Positions 1,423-4,942 of a stretch of DNA of 7,811 bases are shown here, piece by piece (the stretch's first letter is position 1; every line of letters starts with the position of its first letter). Origin of the DNA: Marinosulfonomonas sp. (lineage in GTDB: Bacteria > Pseudomonadota > Alphaproteobacteria > Rhodobacterales > Rhodobacteraceae). Position numbers and translations under genes: made by a program. Where the stretch lies: positions 1 to 7,811 of the forward strand of contig JAFLKA010000176.1 in the NCBI GenBank assembly GCA_022712735.1, given 5' to 3'. Below the pieces are notes generated by a model. That model was not told the DNA's origin. It was given only the letters and a program-made list of their open reading frames with translations, and did not search any database.

Positions 1423-2955
1423 TTATGCCGGTTTGGTTTTTTGCCGACGCACCAGCAGCTTGTTCAGCGCATTGATATAGGCCTTGGCCGAGGCCACGAC
1501 CGTATCGGTATCTGCCGATTGACCCATGGCGATTTTGCCGTCTTCTTCCATCCGCACTGATACGGTGGCTTGGGCATCTGTGCCCTCGGTCACTGCGTGC
1601 ACTTGGTAAAGTTGCAAGCGCGCCTCATGCGGAAACAGCGCTTTGACCGCGTTGAACGCCGCATCAACAGGCCCGTCACCCTCGGCCGAAACCTCATGCT
1701 CGACCCCGTCAATCAGTAGCGTCATATCGGCAGTTTGCGGCCCCTCGGTGCCACAGACCACAGCTAAGTGTTTCAACTGGATGTGGTCATGCACCGCGTC
1801 CGACGTGCTGTCGCGCATCAAGGCCAGCAAATCATCGTCAAAGATTTCCTTCTTGCGATCCGCCAGCGCCTTGAAACGCACGAAAACGTCCTTCAACTGG
1901 TTGTCCGCCAACTCGTGCCCCAAGTCCTTCAACTTGGCCCGCAAGGCCGCACGGCCCGAATGTTTGCCCATCACCAGATTGGTTTCCGACAGGCCGACAT
2001 CCTCGGGGCGCATGATTTCAAAGGTTTCGGCGTTCTTCAACATGCCGTCCTGATGGATGCCGCTTTCGTGGGCAAAAGCATTTTTGCCGACGATAGCTTT
2101 GTTATATTGCACGGGGAAACCGGACACCGTGGCGACCAAACGGCTGATGTTCATGATCTTGGTGGTGTCGATCCGGTTGCGGTACGGCATGATGTCGTTG
2201 CGCACTTTCATCGCCATCACCACCTCTTCCAAGGCGGTGTTACCGGCCCGTTCGCCCAGCCCGTTGATGGTGCATTCGATCTGGCGCGCACCTGCATCTA
2301 CTGCTGCCAGTGAATTGGCCGTCGCCATGCCCAGATCGTTGTGGCAATGGGTGGCAAAGATAATGCTATCCGCCCCCGGCACCCGTTCCAGCAACATGCG
2401 GATCAGTTCGGCGCTCTCGGCGGGGGCAGTATAGCCCACCGTATCGGGGATGTTGATGGTGGTGGCACCGGCCTTGATGGCGATTTCCACCACGCGGCAC
2501 AGGTAATCATCCTCGGTGCGGGTGGCGTCCATCGGCGACCACTGGACGTTGTCACACAGGTTGCGGGCGTGGGTGACTGATTCATGAATCACATCGGCCA
2601 TTTCGTCCATGTCCAGATTCGGAATGGCGCGGTGCAGCGGCGAGGTGCCGATGAAGGTGTGGATGCGCGGCTGGGCGGCAAATTTCACCGCCTCCCAGCA
2701 GCGGTCAATATCGCCGATCTTGGCGCGGGCCAGCCCGCAGATCACCGAATTCACGCTGCGGGTGGCAACTTCTTTGACAGCCTCGAAATCGCCCTCGGAG
2801 GCAATCGGAAAACCCGCCTCGATCACATCAACACCCATTTCGTCCAGCAGCGATGCGATCTCCAGCTTTTCGTCATGGGTCATGGTTGCGCCCGGCGATT
2901 GCTCGCCATCGCGCAAGGTGGTGTCGAATATTATTACACGGTCTTGTTTGGTCAT
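1423..2955 (-). CDS. leuA: 2-isopropylmalate synthase
   Basis: LeuA condenses acetyl-CoA with 2-oxoisovalerate to 2-isopropylmalate, the committed step of leucine synthesis, in the cytoplasm. From ATG 2955 it is 510 aa, normal for the long type with a regulatory domain. The TIM-barrel catalytic domain shows [12 protein letters not shown] (11-22), the metal-binding HCHND (203-207) and NGLGERAGN (231-239). The linker region has HESGIHQDG (296-304) and GKHSGR (330-335). About residues 390-500 form the C-terminal dimer domain that binds leucine for feedback inhibition. An in-frame ATG at 3000 would add 15 residues but overlap the cupin gene by 35 bp. ATG 2955 instead has AAGGTG about 6 bases upstream, overlapping the cupin stop, which indicates translational coupling. 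The leucine-rich leader upstream of the cupin gene probably adds attenuation control. Confidence 0.97.
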
Positions 2956-2965
2956 TTCAGTCACC

Positions 2966-3331
2966 TTAAATCCAGGGTTTGGCGGCAGCGGTTTCGGCAT
3001 CGCCCGTATTGGGCAGGCCGGCTGGCTCTATCAACATTACTTTTGCTTCTGTTTCCGCGCGGGGCCGATGGACGACGCCTGCGGGAATAACGCAGAGCTC
3101 ACCTGCACCAAGGGTGACGCTATTGCCCCCCTCAACGTCCAGTGTCACTTCGCCCTCAAGGATCAGGAAAAAATCATCGCTGTCCTCATGAACATGAAAC
3201 GGGAATTCGCCGGTGAATTTAACCACCATAATGTCATTGCCATTATACTGGGCAACGATTTTGGGGTCCCAATGGGTGTCAAACATGGCGAGCTTATCGG
3301 CAAGGTTAACTTTTGTCAGGGTATGAGCCAT
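2966..3331 (-). CDS. Small single-domain cupin protein
   Basis: This 121-aa protein is a single cupin beta-barrel. Motif 1 is seen as G41, H46, H48, with Asp53 where the usual Glu metal ligand stands, and G60. Motif 2 is G77, P83, G85 and H88. Metal binding through H46, H48, H88 and perhaps D53 is therefore likely, but the substrate cannot be told from sequence. It has no signal peptide or membrane segment. The ATG at 3331 has AAAGG about 7 bases upstream. The stop is 10 bp before leuA and supplies part of leuA's ribosome binding site, so the two genes should be co-transcribed behind the leucine leader. It may be a small-molecule-binding or mannose-6-phosphate-isomerase-like cupin. A role in leucine metabolism is suggested only by position. 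Confidence 0.88.
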   Translation of the reverse strand: MAHTLTKVNLADKLAMFDTHWDPKIVAQYNGNDIMVVKFTGEFPFHVHEDSDDFFLILEGEVTLDVEGGNSVTLGAGELCVIPAGVVHRPRAETEAKVMLIEPAGLPNTGDAETAAAKPWI

Positions 3332-3369
3332 TTGTCGGCCTTTCTACGTCTTAGCTATTTGTATGAAGC

Positions 3370-3419
3370 GGCGCGTCCTATCTCCTCTGAGCGGTCGCGC
3401 CATCAGGCACGCTCAGAGG
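3370..3419 (-). promoter_or_regulatory. Leucine attenuator-type hairpin region
   Basis: On the minus-strand transcript, CCTCTGAGCG (3419-3410) pairs perfectly over 10 bp with CGCTCAGAGG (3393-3384), with a 16-nt loop that can itself form a short GCC/GGC stem. The leader-peptide stop codon (3415-3413) lies inside the 5' arm. A second pairing, GGCGCG (3401-3396) with CGCGCC (3375-3370), is interlocked with the first, so the two should exclude each other or form a pseudoknot. A ribosome at the stop would cover the first arm; one stalled on the Leu codons would leave it free. That is attenuation logic. No U-tract follows either stem, so whether control is at termination, Rho access or translation is unknown. 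Confidence 0.65.
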
Positions 3420-3502
3420 CGGCTAAGCAGTAGGATCGACGAAAGCAGCAGGCCAGTGGTGCGGGCTGCGGTATCACAGGTGATATGTCCAATATTCGTC
3501 AT
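3413..3502 (-). CDS. Leucine-rich leader peptide (leuL-like)
   Basis: This is a 29-residue ORF from ATG 3502 to TGA 3413. It begins MTNIGHITC and ends LLLSSILLLSRL, so seven of the last twelve residues are Leu (CTG CTG CTT, CTA CTG CTT, CTC) with one Ile. Such a run directly before a strong hairpin, upstream of a leucine biosynthesis gene, is the hallmark of a ribosome-mediated attenuator, as in enteric leuL. Its stop lies inside the hairpin's 5' arm, and the cupin start is 81 bp downstream. There is no clear Shine-Dalgarno sequence; the -10-like TATAGT nearby suggests the transcript may begin almost at the ATG. The peptide itself probably has no function beyond stalling. Homology was not tested, but composition and position make the call strong. 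Confidence 0.85.
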   Translation of the reverse strand: MTNIGHITCDTAARTTGLLLSSILLLSRL

Positions 3503-3511
3503 CACCGGTGA
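3472..3511. repeat. Two similar palindromes, 28 bp apart, at the leu leader start
   Basis: TATCAC-AG-GTGATA (3472-3485) and the perfect palindrome TCACCGGTGA (3502-3511) share the core ATCAC(A/C)GGTGA in direct register 28 bp apart. The second lies between the putative -10 and the leader ATG, where a bound protein would block initiation. The first is inside the leader ORF, so part of its symmetry could be chance. No regulator is identified. Confidence 0.4.
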
Positions 3512-3516
3512 CTATA
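3511..3516 (-). promoter_or_regulatory. Candidate -10 element of the leader-cupin-leuA operon
   Basis: TATAGT on the minus strand matches the -10 consensus at five of six bases. Transcription would start about 7 bases later, at roughly 3502-3505, virtually on the leader ATG, making the leader mRNA leaderless and explaining the missing ribosome binding site. The -35 position (TTTTCT at 17-bp spacing) is a poor match, so the element needs an activator or is only tentative. Confidence 0.4.
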
Positions 3517-3595
3517 TGAGCGGGAAATTGAAAAGAAAACCCCTGTAATATGAATTCCTGAAAGCGACAGAATGTTGCTAGAAACATTAAGATTA

Positions 3596-3624
3596 TTGAA
3601 TGTAATTACCTTTTTCGGTATAGC
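3596..3624 (+). promoter_or_regulatory. Candidate sigma-70 promoter of sqr
   Basis: TTGAAT (3596-3601) and TATAGC (3619-3624) each match four of six consensus bases and are separated by exactly 17 bp in an AT-rich stretch. The predicted start near 3631 leaves a 5' UTR of about 40 nt carrying the dyad at 3638-3653 and a GGGGAG ribosome binding site (3659-3664). Confidence 0.5.
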
Positions 3625-3637
3625 AGACGGGATGAGA

Positions 3638-3653
3638 ATTCAGAAAACTGAGT
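3638..3653. promoter_or_regulatory. Possible sulfide/persulfide repressor operator before sqr
   Basis: ATTCAG-AAAA-CTGAGT is an inverted repeat with five of six positions symmetric in each arm. It fits ATTC-N8-GAGT, one base from the ATTC-N8-GAAT pattern I recall for the ArsR-type repressors SqrR/BigR that control sulfide oxidation genes. It lies just downstream of the predicted transcription start and ahead of the ribosome binding site, a good place for repression. No such repressor gene is in the window, so the assignment is inference. Confidence 0.4.
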
Positions 3654-3670
3654 CTAATGGGGAGTAATCT

Positions 3671-4942
3671 ATGACACATGTAGTTGTATTGGGGGCCGGT
3701 CTAGGCGGCGCCATACAAGCTTATGAGCTGCGCGAAACGTTGGCGAAAAGCGATAAAATAACGGTTATATCGAATAAATCGTATTTTCAATTCACACCAT
3801 CCAACCCGTGGGCAGGTATTGGCTGGCGTAAAAAGAAAGACCTAATTGTCGAGCTGGAACCAGTAATGACCAAGCGGGGAATCGAGTTTATTTGCGATGG
3901 CGCGAAAAAGCTGAAACCAAAGGATAACACCATCGTTCTGGATAGCGGGCGCGAGGTGACCTATGATTATCTGGTGATCGCAACCGGCCCTGATCTGGCC
4001 TTTGACGAGATCGAGGGCTTTGGCCCTGACGCGCATACGTCTTCGGTTTGTCATGTGGAGCACGCGGAAATTTCCGGCGACAACTGGGATGCGTTCTGTG
4101 ACAACCCCGGCCCGATTGTGATCGGCGCAGTGCAAGGTGCGTCGTGTTTTGGCCCAGCTTACGAATACCTGCTGACCATTGAAACTGATCTGCGGCGCCG
4201 TAAAATCCGTCATAAGGTTCCGATGACGTTTGTGACGTCCGAACCCTACATCGGCCACCTTGGTCTGGGTGGTGTGGGCGATACCAAGGGTATGCTCGAA
4301 TCCGCCATGCGGGATCGTGACATCAAATGGGTCACCAACTCCAAGGTCGACAAATTTGAAAAAGACAAAGTGTTTTTCACCGAGGTGAATGACGACGGTT
4401 CTGAGAAAGCCAAACACGAAGAAGAGTTCAGCTATGCGATGATGTTGCCAGCGTTCCGCGGCATCCCTGCGTTGATGGGGATCAAAGGGTTGGTAAACCC
4501 GCGTGGGTTTGTGATTGTCGATGAATTCCAGCGCAATCCGGAATTTAAAAATATCTTTGCCATCGGTGTTTGTATCGCCATCGCACCGCCAGTGATCACA
4601 CCGGTGCCAACGGGTGTACCGAAAACCGGCTTTATGATTGAAAGCATGGTCACGGCCACAGCCCACAACATTCCTGATGTGATCGCGGGTAAGGAGCCCA
4701 AGGAAATGCCAACATGGAACGCCTTCTGTCTGGCCGACTTTGGCAACCGTGGCTTTGCATTTTTGGCGATGCCGCAAAACCCGCCGCGCAACAAAAACTG
4801 GACCTCCAGCGGGCGTTGGGTGCATTGGGCCAAACTGGCGTTTGAATGGTATTTCATCCGCAAAGTGAAAAAAGGCGTGTCCGAGCCTTGGTATGAAAAG
4901 CAGATCATGAAGATGCTGAAGATCACCAAGCTGCAGAAGTAG
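3671..4942 (+). CDS. sqr: Sulfide:quinone oxidoreductase (type I-like)
   Basis: SQR is an FAD enzyme at the inner membrane that oxidises sulfide to polysulfide or persulfide and reduces quinone. The 423-aa protein has the N-terminal FAD motif GAGLGG (8-13), the second flavoprotein motif ATGPD (104-108) and the three Cys expected for SQR: C127 (SSVCHVEHA), C159 (QGASCFGP) and C353 (CLADFG). These and H131, H196 and V300 coincide with the numbering I recall as important in Rhodobacter capsulatus SQR. The segment VPTGVPKTGFMIESMV (312-327) is typical. The C-terminus is rich in Trp, Phe and Lys, fitting monotopic membrane attachment. There is no signal peptide. GGGGAG sits 6 bases before the ATG. 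The first 170 bases are more AT-rich than the rest, with three ATA codons. It stands alone as a single-gene unit, and no persulfide dioxygenase or sox genes are visible. Confidence 0.93.
   Translation: MTHVVVLGAGLGGAIQAYELRETLAKSDKITVISNKSYFQFTPSNPWAGIGWRKKKDLIVELEPVMTKRGIEFICDGAKKLKPKDNTIVLDSGREVTYDYLVIATGPDLAFDEIEGFGPDAHTSSVCHVEHAEISGDNWDAFCDNPGPIVIGAVQGASCFGPAYEYLLTIETDLRRRKIRHKVPMTFVTSEPYIGHLGLGGVGDTKGMLESAMRDRDIKWVTNSKVDKFEKDKVFFTEVNDDGSEKAKHEEEFSYAMMLPAFRGIPALMGIKGLVNPRGFVIVDEFQRNPEFKNIFAIGVCIAIAPPVITPVPTGVPKTGFMIESMVTATAHNIPDVIAGKEPKEMPTWNAFCLADFGNRGFAFLAMPQNPPRNKNWTSSGRWVHWAKLAFEWYFIRKVKKGVSEPWYEKQIMKMLKITKLQK

Follow-up and report, generated by a model that had tools for sequence, protein, structure and literature searches.

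The window analysed here, a stretch of 7,811 nucleotides at the start of a Marinosulfonomonas sp. contig, carries on its minus strand a short leucine-rich open reading frame followed by a small cupin gene and by leuA, and the coordinates of these genes and of the RNA elements around them are collected in Table 1. The start of leuA is favoured at about 2955 because conservation in the relatives begins near this position; from the sequence, the in-frame ATG at 3000 appears the less likely start. On the plus strand, the divergent gene at 3671-4942 encodes a pyridine nucleotide-disulphide oxidoreductase (Pfam Pyr_redox_2), which in NCBIfam comes closest to a sulfide:quinone reductase subtype, though with a score far under the cut-off. 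A plus-strand ORF at 3363-3548 was considered as a gene and rejected, as it matched no protein family.

Table 1. Position of the leader, its promoter, its RNA pairings and the operon genes in the window.
Feature	Position	Strand	Basis
leuA, 2-isopropylmalate synthase	1423..2955	minus	above NCBIfam NF002087 cut-off
Small cupin gene (Cupin_2), heading the operon in the window	2966..3331	minus	domain match
Likely cupin Shine-Dalgarno, AAAGG	3339..3343	minus	sequence
P1 3' arm, GCUAAG, its end 18 nt before the start codon of the cupin	3350..3355	minus	covariation
P3 3' arm, CGCGCC	3370..3375	minus	alignment A1
P2 3' arm, CGCUCAGAGG	3384..3393	minus	inverted repeat, covariation
P3 5' arm, GGCGCG, within the P2 loop	3396..3401	minus	alignment A1
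P2 5' arm, CCUCUGAGCG, holding the leader stop UGA	3410..3419	minus	inverted repeat, covariation
P1 5' arm, CUUAGC, a Ser codon preceded by the final Leu codon of the run	3422..3427	minus	complementarity, covariation
Leu leader ORF, 29 codons and stop	3413..3502	minus	ORF translation, tail kept in relatives
Predicted -10 box, TATAGT, 8 nt before the leader AUG	3511..3516	minus	information peak, 78 sequences
Box at the -35 place, TTTTCTTTTC (CTTTTCATTT-like in relatives)	3530..3539	minus	information peak, 78 sequences

The leader ORF starts with the ATG at 3502, stops with the TGA at 3415-3413 and encodes the peptide MTNIGHITCDTAARTTGLLLSSILLLSRL, in which leucine occupies codons 18-20, 24-26 and 29. 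The first-pass annotation had described an ORF of 29 codons with seven Leu among the last 12, a stop lying inside a perfect 10-bp inverted repeat and a second stem interlocked with the first. Re-reading of the sequence bore out all of this, the repeat 3384-3393/3410-3419 holding the TGA and the second stem, 3370-3378/3393-3401, being paired at eight of its nine positions. The leader observation was confirmed to be far from chance. When the 368-base intergenic stretch was put through 5000 dinucleotide shuffles, seven Leu in the last 12 codons of an ATG-initiated ORF of 15-60 codons appeared in one shuffle, and at least five Leu together with a stop within a 10-bp repeat appeared in none. The stability of the 81-nt hairpin alone is not unusual for its composition (z -1.5), and the whole 199-nt leader is unusually stable (z -2.6). 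The peptide was rejected as a member of a known protein family because it matched none, and an Rfam search with the window and 20 loci matched no RNA family.

When 78 sequences (the window included) were aligned on the leader AUG, two conserved boxes stood out, one CTTTTCATTT-like (about -36 to -28) and one TATAGT-like (about -13 to -8). At least five of the six bases of TATAAT were matched 5-17 nt before the AUG in 64 of the 78, a count made on the best-scoring in-frame ATG and without a shuffled control. The usual promoter spacing would put the transcription start at or beside the leader AUG, and the sequence suggests a leaderless transcript that begins at or next to this codon. No sigma-70 consensus site came out of a simple promoter scan of 3250-3720. 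The departure of the upstream box from TTGACA may be the reason, and this box suggests a non-standard -35 region. An inverted repeat around the leader start (TCACAGGTGAT/ATCACCGGTGA, 3474-3511) could hide the leader AUG; as an extra switch this hairpin was rejected, since by eye the near relative L002 has no counterpart of it.

From a LeuA search the best 80 of 593 confirmed stretches were taken, most of them titled Rhodobacteraceae or its members. With the window included and one locus without enough upstream room omitted, a Leu-rich tail (at least five Leu in 12 codons) lies within 400 nt upstream of leuA in 69 of 80 loci. Such a tail turned up in 3 of 80 reverse complements and in 5 of 1461 same-strand windows taken elsewhere; our own window counts as a miss in this tally, as the cupin gene shifts its leader beyond 400 nt. 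Frequent tails in the relatives are LLLLSRL, LLLLIRL and LLLLTRL, each directly before the stop, and both the length and the middle of the leader differ widely, with the first residues, M-T-x-x-x-H-I, kept in many. The His-Ile pair (CAU AUC), at leader codons 6-7 (3487-3482, minus strand) in the window, shows a conservation in many relatives that the middle of the peptide lacks.

Alignment A1 comprises 79 sequences, the window and 78 others hand-picked from the best 80 of the 593 LeuA loci. The two omitted loci, L041 and L058 (their elements were found again as L086 and L087), keep the RNA and have a tail with three Leu (QNLILGSL); they belong to small genomes in which P2 is retained and most Leu codons are lost, perhaps a sign of decaying or altered control. 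In the order of Gemmobacter (G003), which we take to be Rhodobacterales, the covariance model R1, built from A1, matched at E <=0.1 in 195 of the 196 genomes sampled: 186 at <=1.7e-9, nine more weakly, and one not at all. Two matches were present in each of six of these genomes, and leuA was adjacent in 30 of 30 loci examined from the best R1 matches of the order.

In A1, 98.4% of the P2 cells are paired and three of its ten pairs are changed on both sides. For P3, counted as the core plus two flanking pairs (eight in all), 82.4% of the cells are paired and three pairs are changed on both sides, one of them in the six-pair core (C-G to U-A, in six sequences). The joint covariation score of P2 and P3 was reached by 0 of 500 shuffles and their count of doubly changed pairs by 4 of 500. 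The first-pass annotation had proposed to look in relatives for the Leu run and both stems, and both turned out to be conserved, the tails in 69 of 80 loci and P2 and P3 by their covariation in A1. The two stems cross and both covary in A1, which would fit the topology, taken as topology only, of an H-type pseudoknot or of alternative structures. The 5' arm of P3 can alternatively pair with GUGCC and thereby extend P2; this GUGCC:GGCGC extension, paired in 97.9% of its cells in A1, is able to form in place of P3, so that the extended hairpin and the knotted form would compete. P3 was rejected as a class-wide switch, as by eye it is seen solely in the order of the window and not in distant relatives.

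Over the class, R1 gave 63 hits in 62 of 385 genomes; the hits are partly unspecific, leuA being found at 55 of the 63. Weak class hits precede leuA in 23 of 25 cases (L093-L117) and in 27 of 33 (L148-L180), and leuA was not found at L113, L115, L153, L157, L159, L168, L177 and L179, of which L168 is cut by the contig end. The distant leaders mostly end in LRLxxP or LLLxxP directly before the stop, with CCCC-UGA opposite UCAGGGG. Five of 50 distant leuA loci were excluded before P2 was counted: L156, which lacks the stop at its usual position, L169 and L176, whose arms match weakly, and L096 and L151, whose loops are very long. Alignment A2, from which the model R2 was built, holds 45 distant loci, the window and five members of the order. 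P2 is paired in 96.2% of its cells in A2, eight of its ten pairs are doubly changed, no pair is invariant, and 0 of 500 shuffles reached any of five measures.

At E 0.01, R2 matched 122 of the 385 class genomes (263 had no match) and 55 of 299 genomes over the phylum. We inspected 84 R2 loci: the 29 best of the class (many from genomes used in the model), 15 from the phylum and 40 class hits unused in R2, these last selected by hand at E values from 1.8e-8 to 0.0094. The leuA gene is present at 83 of the 84, including 39 of the 40 class hits unused for the model, and in those 39 the leuA match begins 92-319 nt past the first base of the element, on the same strand. Six of the 39 match the LeuA of the window at merely 27-28%, and two of these six (L265 and L266, in genomes G333 and G252) have a LeuA of the other family, TIGR00970, above its cut-off.

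The leader stop codon covaries with its P2 partner. In 39 further loci, found by a model that rewards pairing and so biased toward structure in their pairing though not in their leuA adjacency, UGA stands opposite UCA in 15, UAA opposite UUA in 4 of 4, and UAG opposite CUA in 3 of 4 (the fourth has UUA, with a G-U pair). The remaining 17 of the 39 fall outside these exact sets, mostly with UGA and a partner one base different, and L238, L242 and L246 lack a stop codon at this position of P2.

The cupin gene is a less constant companion. It lies between leader and leuA in four of the best 80 of 593 LeuA loci and also in L089, L091, L141 and L143, and this cupin was found in 27 of 149 genomes of the family. 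Among 20 loci taken by their cupin, six have it between leader and leuA, with the leader RNA upstream in all six; at the other 14 no leuA was found within the stretch examined. L028 has a weaker cupin match downstream of leuA, and no cupin match was found in the stretches examined of L001 and L002, whose LeuA proteins are nearest to that of the window among the best 80 of 593 (89% identity). The cupin-leuA operon named in the first-pass annotation therefore stands for the window but not as a general design, the cupin being in the minority (4 of the best 80 of 593).

A further pairing, P1, joins the end of the Leu run to the region before the next gene. Its 3' arm, at 3350-3355, lies beyond the 3370-3502 segment that the first-pass annotation had delimited, just upstream of the cupin Shine-Dalgarno. 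In a permutation test on 79 loci, the Leu segment paired better with the downstream region of its own locus (mean -13.9 kcal/mol) than with those of the others (-11.5; z -8.0, 0 of 10000), with z values of -1.2 and -1.3 in two decoy regions. In the distant set, run without decoy regions, the means were -20.7 against -15.9 (z -10.0, 0 of 10000 permutations). The effect per locus is modest, as the own segment has a median rank of 18th of 79 and is among the best five in 18% of the loci, and shared ancestry partly remains in these tests (L011 and L015 are near copies). The lists of best helices were picked after the fact, and the weight rests on the permutation tests.

Covariation is also seen at a synonymous position. 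Among the loci with a run ending in CUN-AGC/U and a downstream GCUNAG motif (27 of 46), CUU goes with GCUAAG in 21 of 21 and CUA or CUG with GCUUAG in 5 of 6, L040 being the one that breaks the rule; the association of Leu codon and arm gave a Fisher value of 7e-5, uncorrected for kinship. The GCU(A/U)AG arm is absent from 19 of the 46 AGC/AGU loci and present in 0 of 33 other loci. Over the 27 loci, its spacing has a standard deviation of 5.6 to the start codon and of 14.5 to P2; the spacer is longer in L031, L048, L055 and L059, where the arm is 29-32 nt from the start codon. In A1, P1 ends at a median of 18 nt upstream of the start codon (4-14 nt in 16 of 78). In most of these sequences, the window among them, it thus lies over the 5' margin of the initiation site and leaves the Shine-Dalgarno itself uncovered. 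In the distant set, with start codons assigned by way of their Shine-Dalgarno, 23 of 48 loci have a best P1 helix that overlaps the Shine-Dalgarno likely used by leuA. At the loci in which the cupin comes first (the window, L035, L037 and L064), the P1 arm precedes the start of the cupin.

The conserved Leu run and the covarying stems support the design of ribosome-mediated attenuation that the first-pass annotation had recognized, and we favour, with somewhat better than even confidence, a leucine attenuator whose target is most likely the initiation of translation at the operon's first gene. The promoter abutting the leader AUG would yield a leaderless transcript. With ample Leu-tRNA, the ribosome would pass the Leu run, terminate at the UGA inside P2 and depart; P1 and P2 could then form, the latter either lengthened by GUGCC:GGCGC or in a knot with P3, all of them pairings that covary. 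P1, with the Leu codons as one strand and a segment on or immediately before the ribosome-binding site as the other, would keep the start region of cupin-leuA shut. When leucine is short, a ribosome stalled on the Leu codons would cover P1 on its 5' side, which would open the start region. P2 probably draws the arms of P1 together and stops the terminating ribosome from reaching the next gene. The leader would probably limit the production of a leucine-synthesis enzyme to leucine shortage.

A folding calculation with ribosome footprint masks and without pseudoknots supports this scheme. Masking the Leu run cut the cost of opening the start region (-25 to -4) by 2.9 kcal/mol in the 79 sequences of A1, and by 0.2 with a control mask, a footprint placed 16 codons before the stop; in 49 distant loci (-16 to -4) the cost went down by 3.2 kcal/mol, with 0.4 for the control. 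On the core stretch of A1 (-16 to -4) the fall was 0.6 kcal/mol (control 0.2). The drop exceeded 1 kcal/mol in 53 of 79 A1 and 37 of 49 distant loci. A mask on the stop codon opens the start region too (2.8 in A1, 1.9 in the distant set), and as a ribosome at the stop opens the site about equally in A1, the switch would rely on its quick release. For the window (-25 to -4), the calculated cost is 10.2 when free and 9.6 under the control mask, and goes down to 5.3 for an A-site positioned four codons ahead of the stop and to 4.8 for a ribosome at the stop; for the near relative L002 the respective values (-25 to -4) are 1.6, 1.5, 1.0 and 1.9, with almost no effect of the masks.

The first-pass annotation had also pointed out that no U-run follows the stems and that the mechanism may differ from the enteric one, either by Rho access or by translational control. 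The missing U-run was confirmed and the suspicion of a different mechanism supported, since a TTTTT run between leader and next gene occurs in 0 of the 79 A1 sequences and a terminator-like site in 1 of 79; in the window, no terminator-like site was found at 3250-3720. As to the two options, the covarying pairing of Leu codons with the region of the ribosome-binding site favours translational control, and Rho remains the main rival. In Rho-dependent transcription attenuation, the leader and stems would gate the loading of Rho, or its reaching the polymerase, after the leader stop, and a U-run would be unneeded; we regard this as unlikely but worth serious attention. Premature Rho termination is known for other leaders, and the lack of a terminator-like site in 78 of 79 A1 and 46 of 49 distant loci agrees with it. 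Termination, however, would have no need of a P1 3' arm at a steady distance from the first start codon of the operon, nor of the overlap between P1 and the likely Shine-Dalgarno at 23 of 48 distant loci, and the stretch from the stop to the next gene is short and structured. Rho was proposed for actinobacterial cys leaders in the text of Seliverstov et al. (2005; PMC1262725), and a later review (PMC8709942) describes the Corynebacterium glutamicum leuA leader as a case of transcriptional attenuation; this description and the median rank of 18 of 79 for the own P1 segment slightly lower the translational reading and slightly raise that of Rho.

It is improbable that the stems are a protein-binding site with the peptide secondary, as is proposed for the actinobacterial LEU element in PMC1262725, where attenuation is doubted and a regulatory protein is put forward. 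The sequence of P2 is indeed strongly conserved, even in L041 and L058 with most Leu codons gone, but against a protein site stand the Leu-rich tail in 69 of 80 loci by strict count (the window and the best 80 of 593), the covariation of the Leu run with P1, and P2 bases that vary across the class while their pairing persists. Classical attenuation of the enteric type, with an intrinsic terminator, is very improbable: it would share the Leu-rich leader and the mutually exclusive stems, but terminator-like sites are present in just 1 of 79 A1 (L031) and 3 of 49 distant loci (L151, L161 and L162) and in none in the window, and TTTTT runs in 0 of 79 and 2 of 49. That the ORF encodes an ordinary small protein and the repeat is chance or an unrelated structure is scarcely credible, for although the initial residues M-T-x-x-x-H-I are conserved in many relatives, the length and middle vary widely, the linkage to leuA extends across the class and the stop codon is embedded in a covarying stem.

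We give about even chances to a broader proposal built on the translational attenuator, namely that many Alphaproteobacteria, around a third of the sampled genomes at the sensitivity of R2, control leuA by one ancestral element of this kind, in which the Leu codons shut the ribosome-binding site of leuA and the stop codon is locked in a covarying stem, that in some genomes the element stands even before a LeuA of a second, distantly related family (TIGR00970), and that the Actinobacteria reached or share the design. An RNA element this widespread, and missing from the copy of Rfam that was searched, would link leucine supply to leucine synthesis across the class. It would offer a sharp test of the old question of whether leader peptides that lack a terminator act on translation, and it would serve as a conserved mark for the starts of leuA operons, assigning extra members, here the cupin, to leucine control.

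Several known systems resemble parts of this arrangement. The enteric leu attenuator (leuL), which is presumably the Leu_leader family of Rfam, likewise has a short leader peptide with Leu codons before leuA and alternative stems. It ends in an intrinsic terminator with a U-run; here, in contrast, there is no terminator, no U-run and no match to an Rfam family. In the attenuation of resistance genes of the ermC type, a drug stalls the ribosome on the leader, and the next gene's ribosome-binding site is thereby freed; a ribosome stalled on the leader would do the same here, with the difference that the starved codons are themselves the sequestering strand. Among the papers listed by full-text literature searches, judged by titles and the openings of abstracts, none dealt with an alphaproteobacterial leuA leader, and Vitreschak et al. 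(2004) may overlap with the present element. The cysS leader uORFC-8-2 of Rhodobacterales (PMC8632094) is described as ribosome-mediated, with regulatory codons, in the same order as the window, but its codons are for cysteine and its gene is cysS; neither leuA nor leucine occurs in the main text of that article. The trpL of Sinorhizobium meliloti (PMC10117765, the main text of which does not contain leuA) is described as an alphaproteobacterial leader peptide on a leaderless transcript before an amino acid gene, and it differs in responding to tryptophan and in working by transcription attenuation that yields a small RNA.

The nearest described design is the actinobacterial LEU element, by its description (PMC1262725) rather than by sequence comparison. 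As described there, it has a leader ORF with a Leu run before leuA, a base stem joining the Leu codons and the leuA Shine-Dalgarno with a pseudoknot inside, and is said to miss the other elements of an attenuator. The Leu-rich leader ORF before leuA is common to both, and in the order of the window P2 and P3 cross inside P1 in a pseudoknot topology; P1 itself reaches the likely Shine-Dalgarno at 23 of 48 distant loci but stops 18 nt short of the start codon in the window. Unlike it, the element reported here belongs to another phylum, has its base stem ending mostly upstream of the Shine-Dalgarno in the order of the window, and carries its stop codon in a covarying stem.
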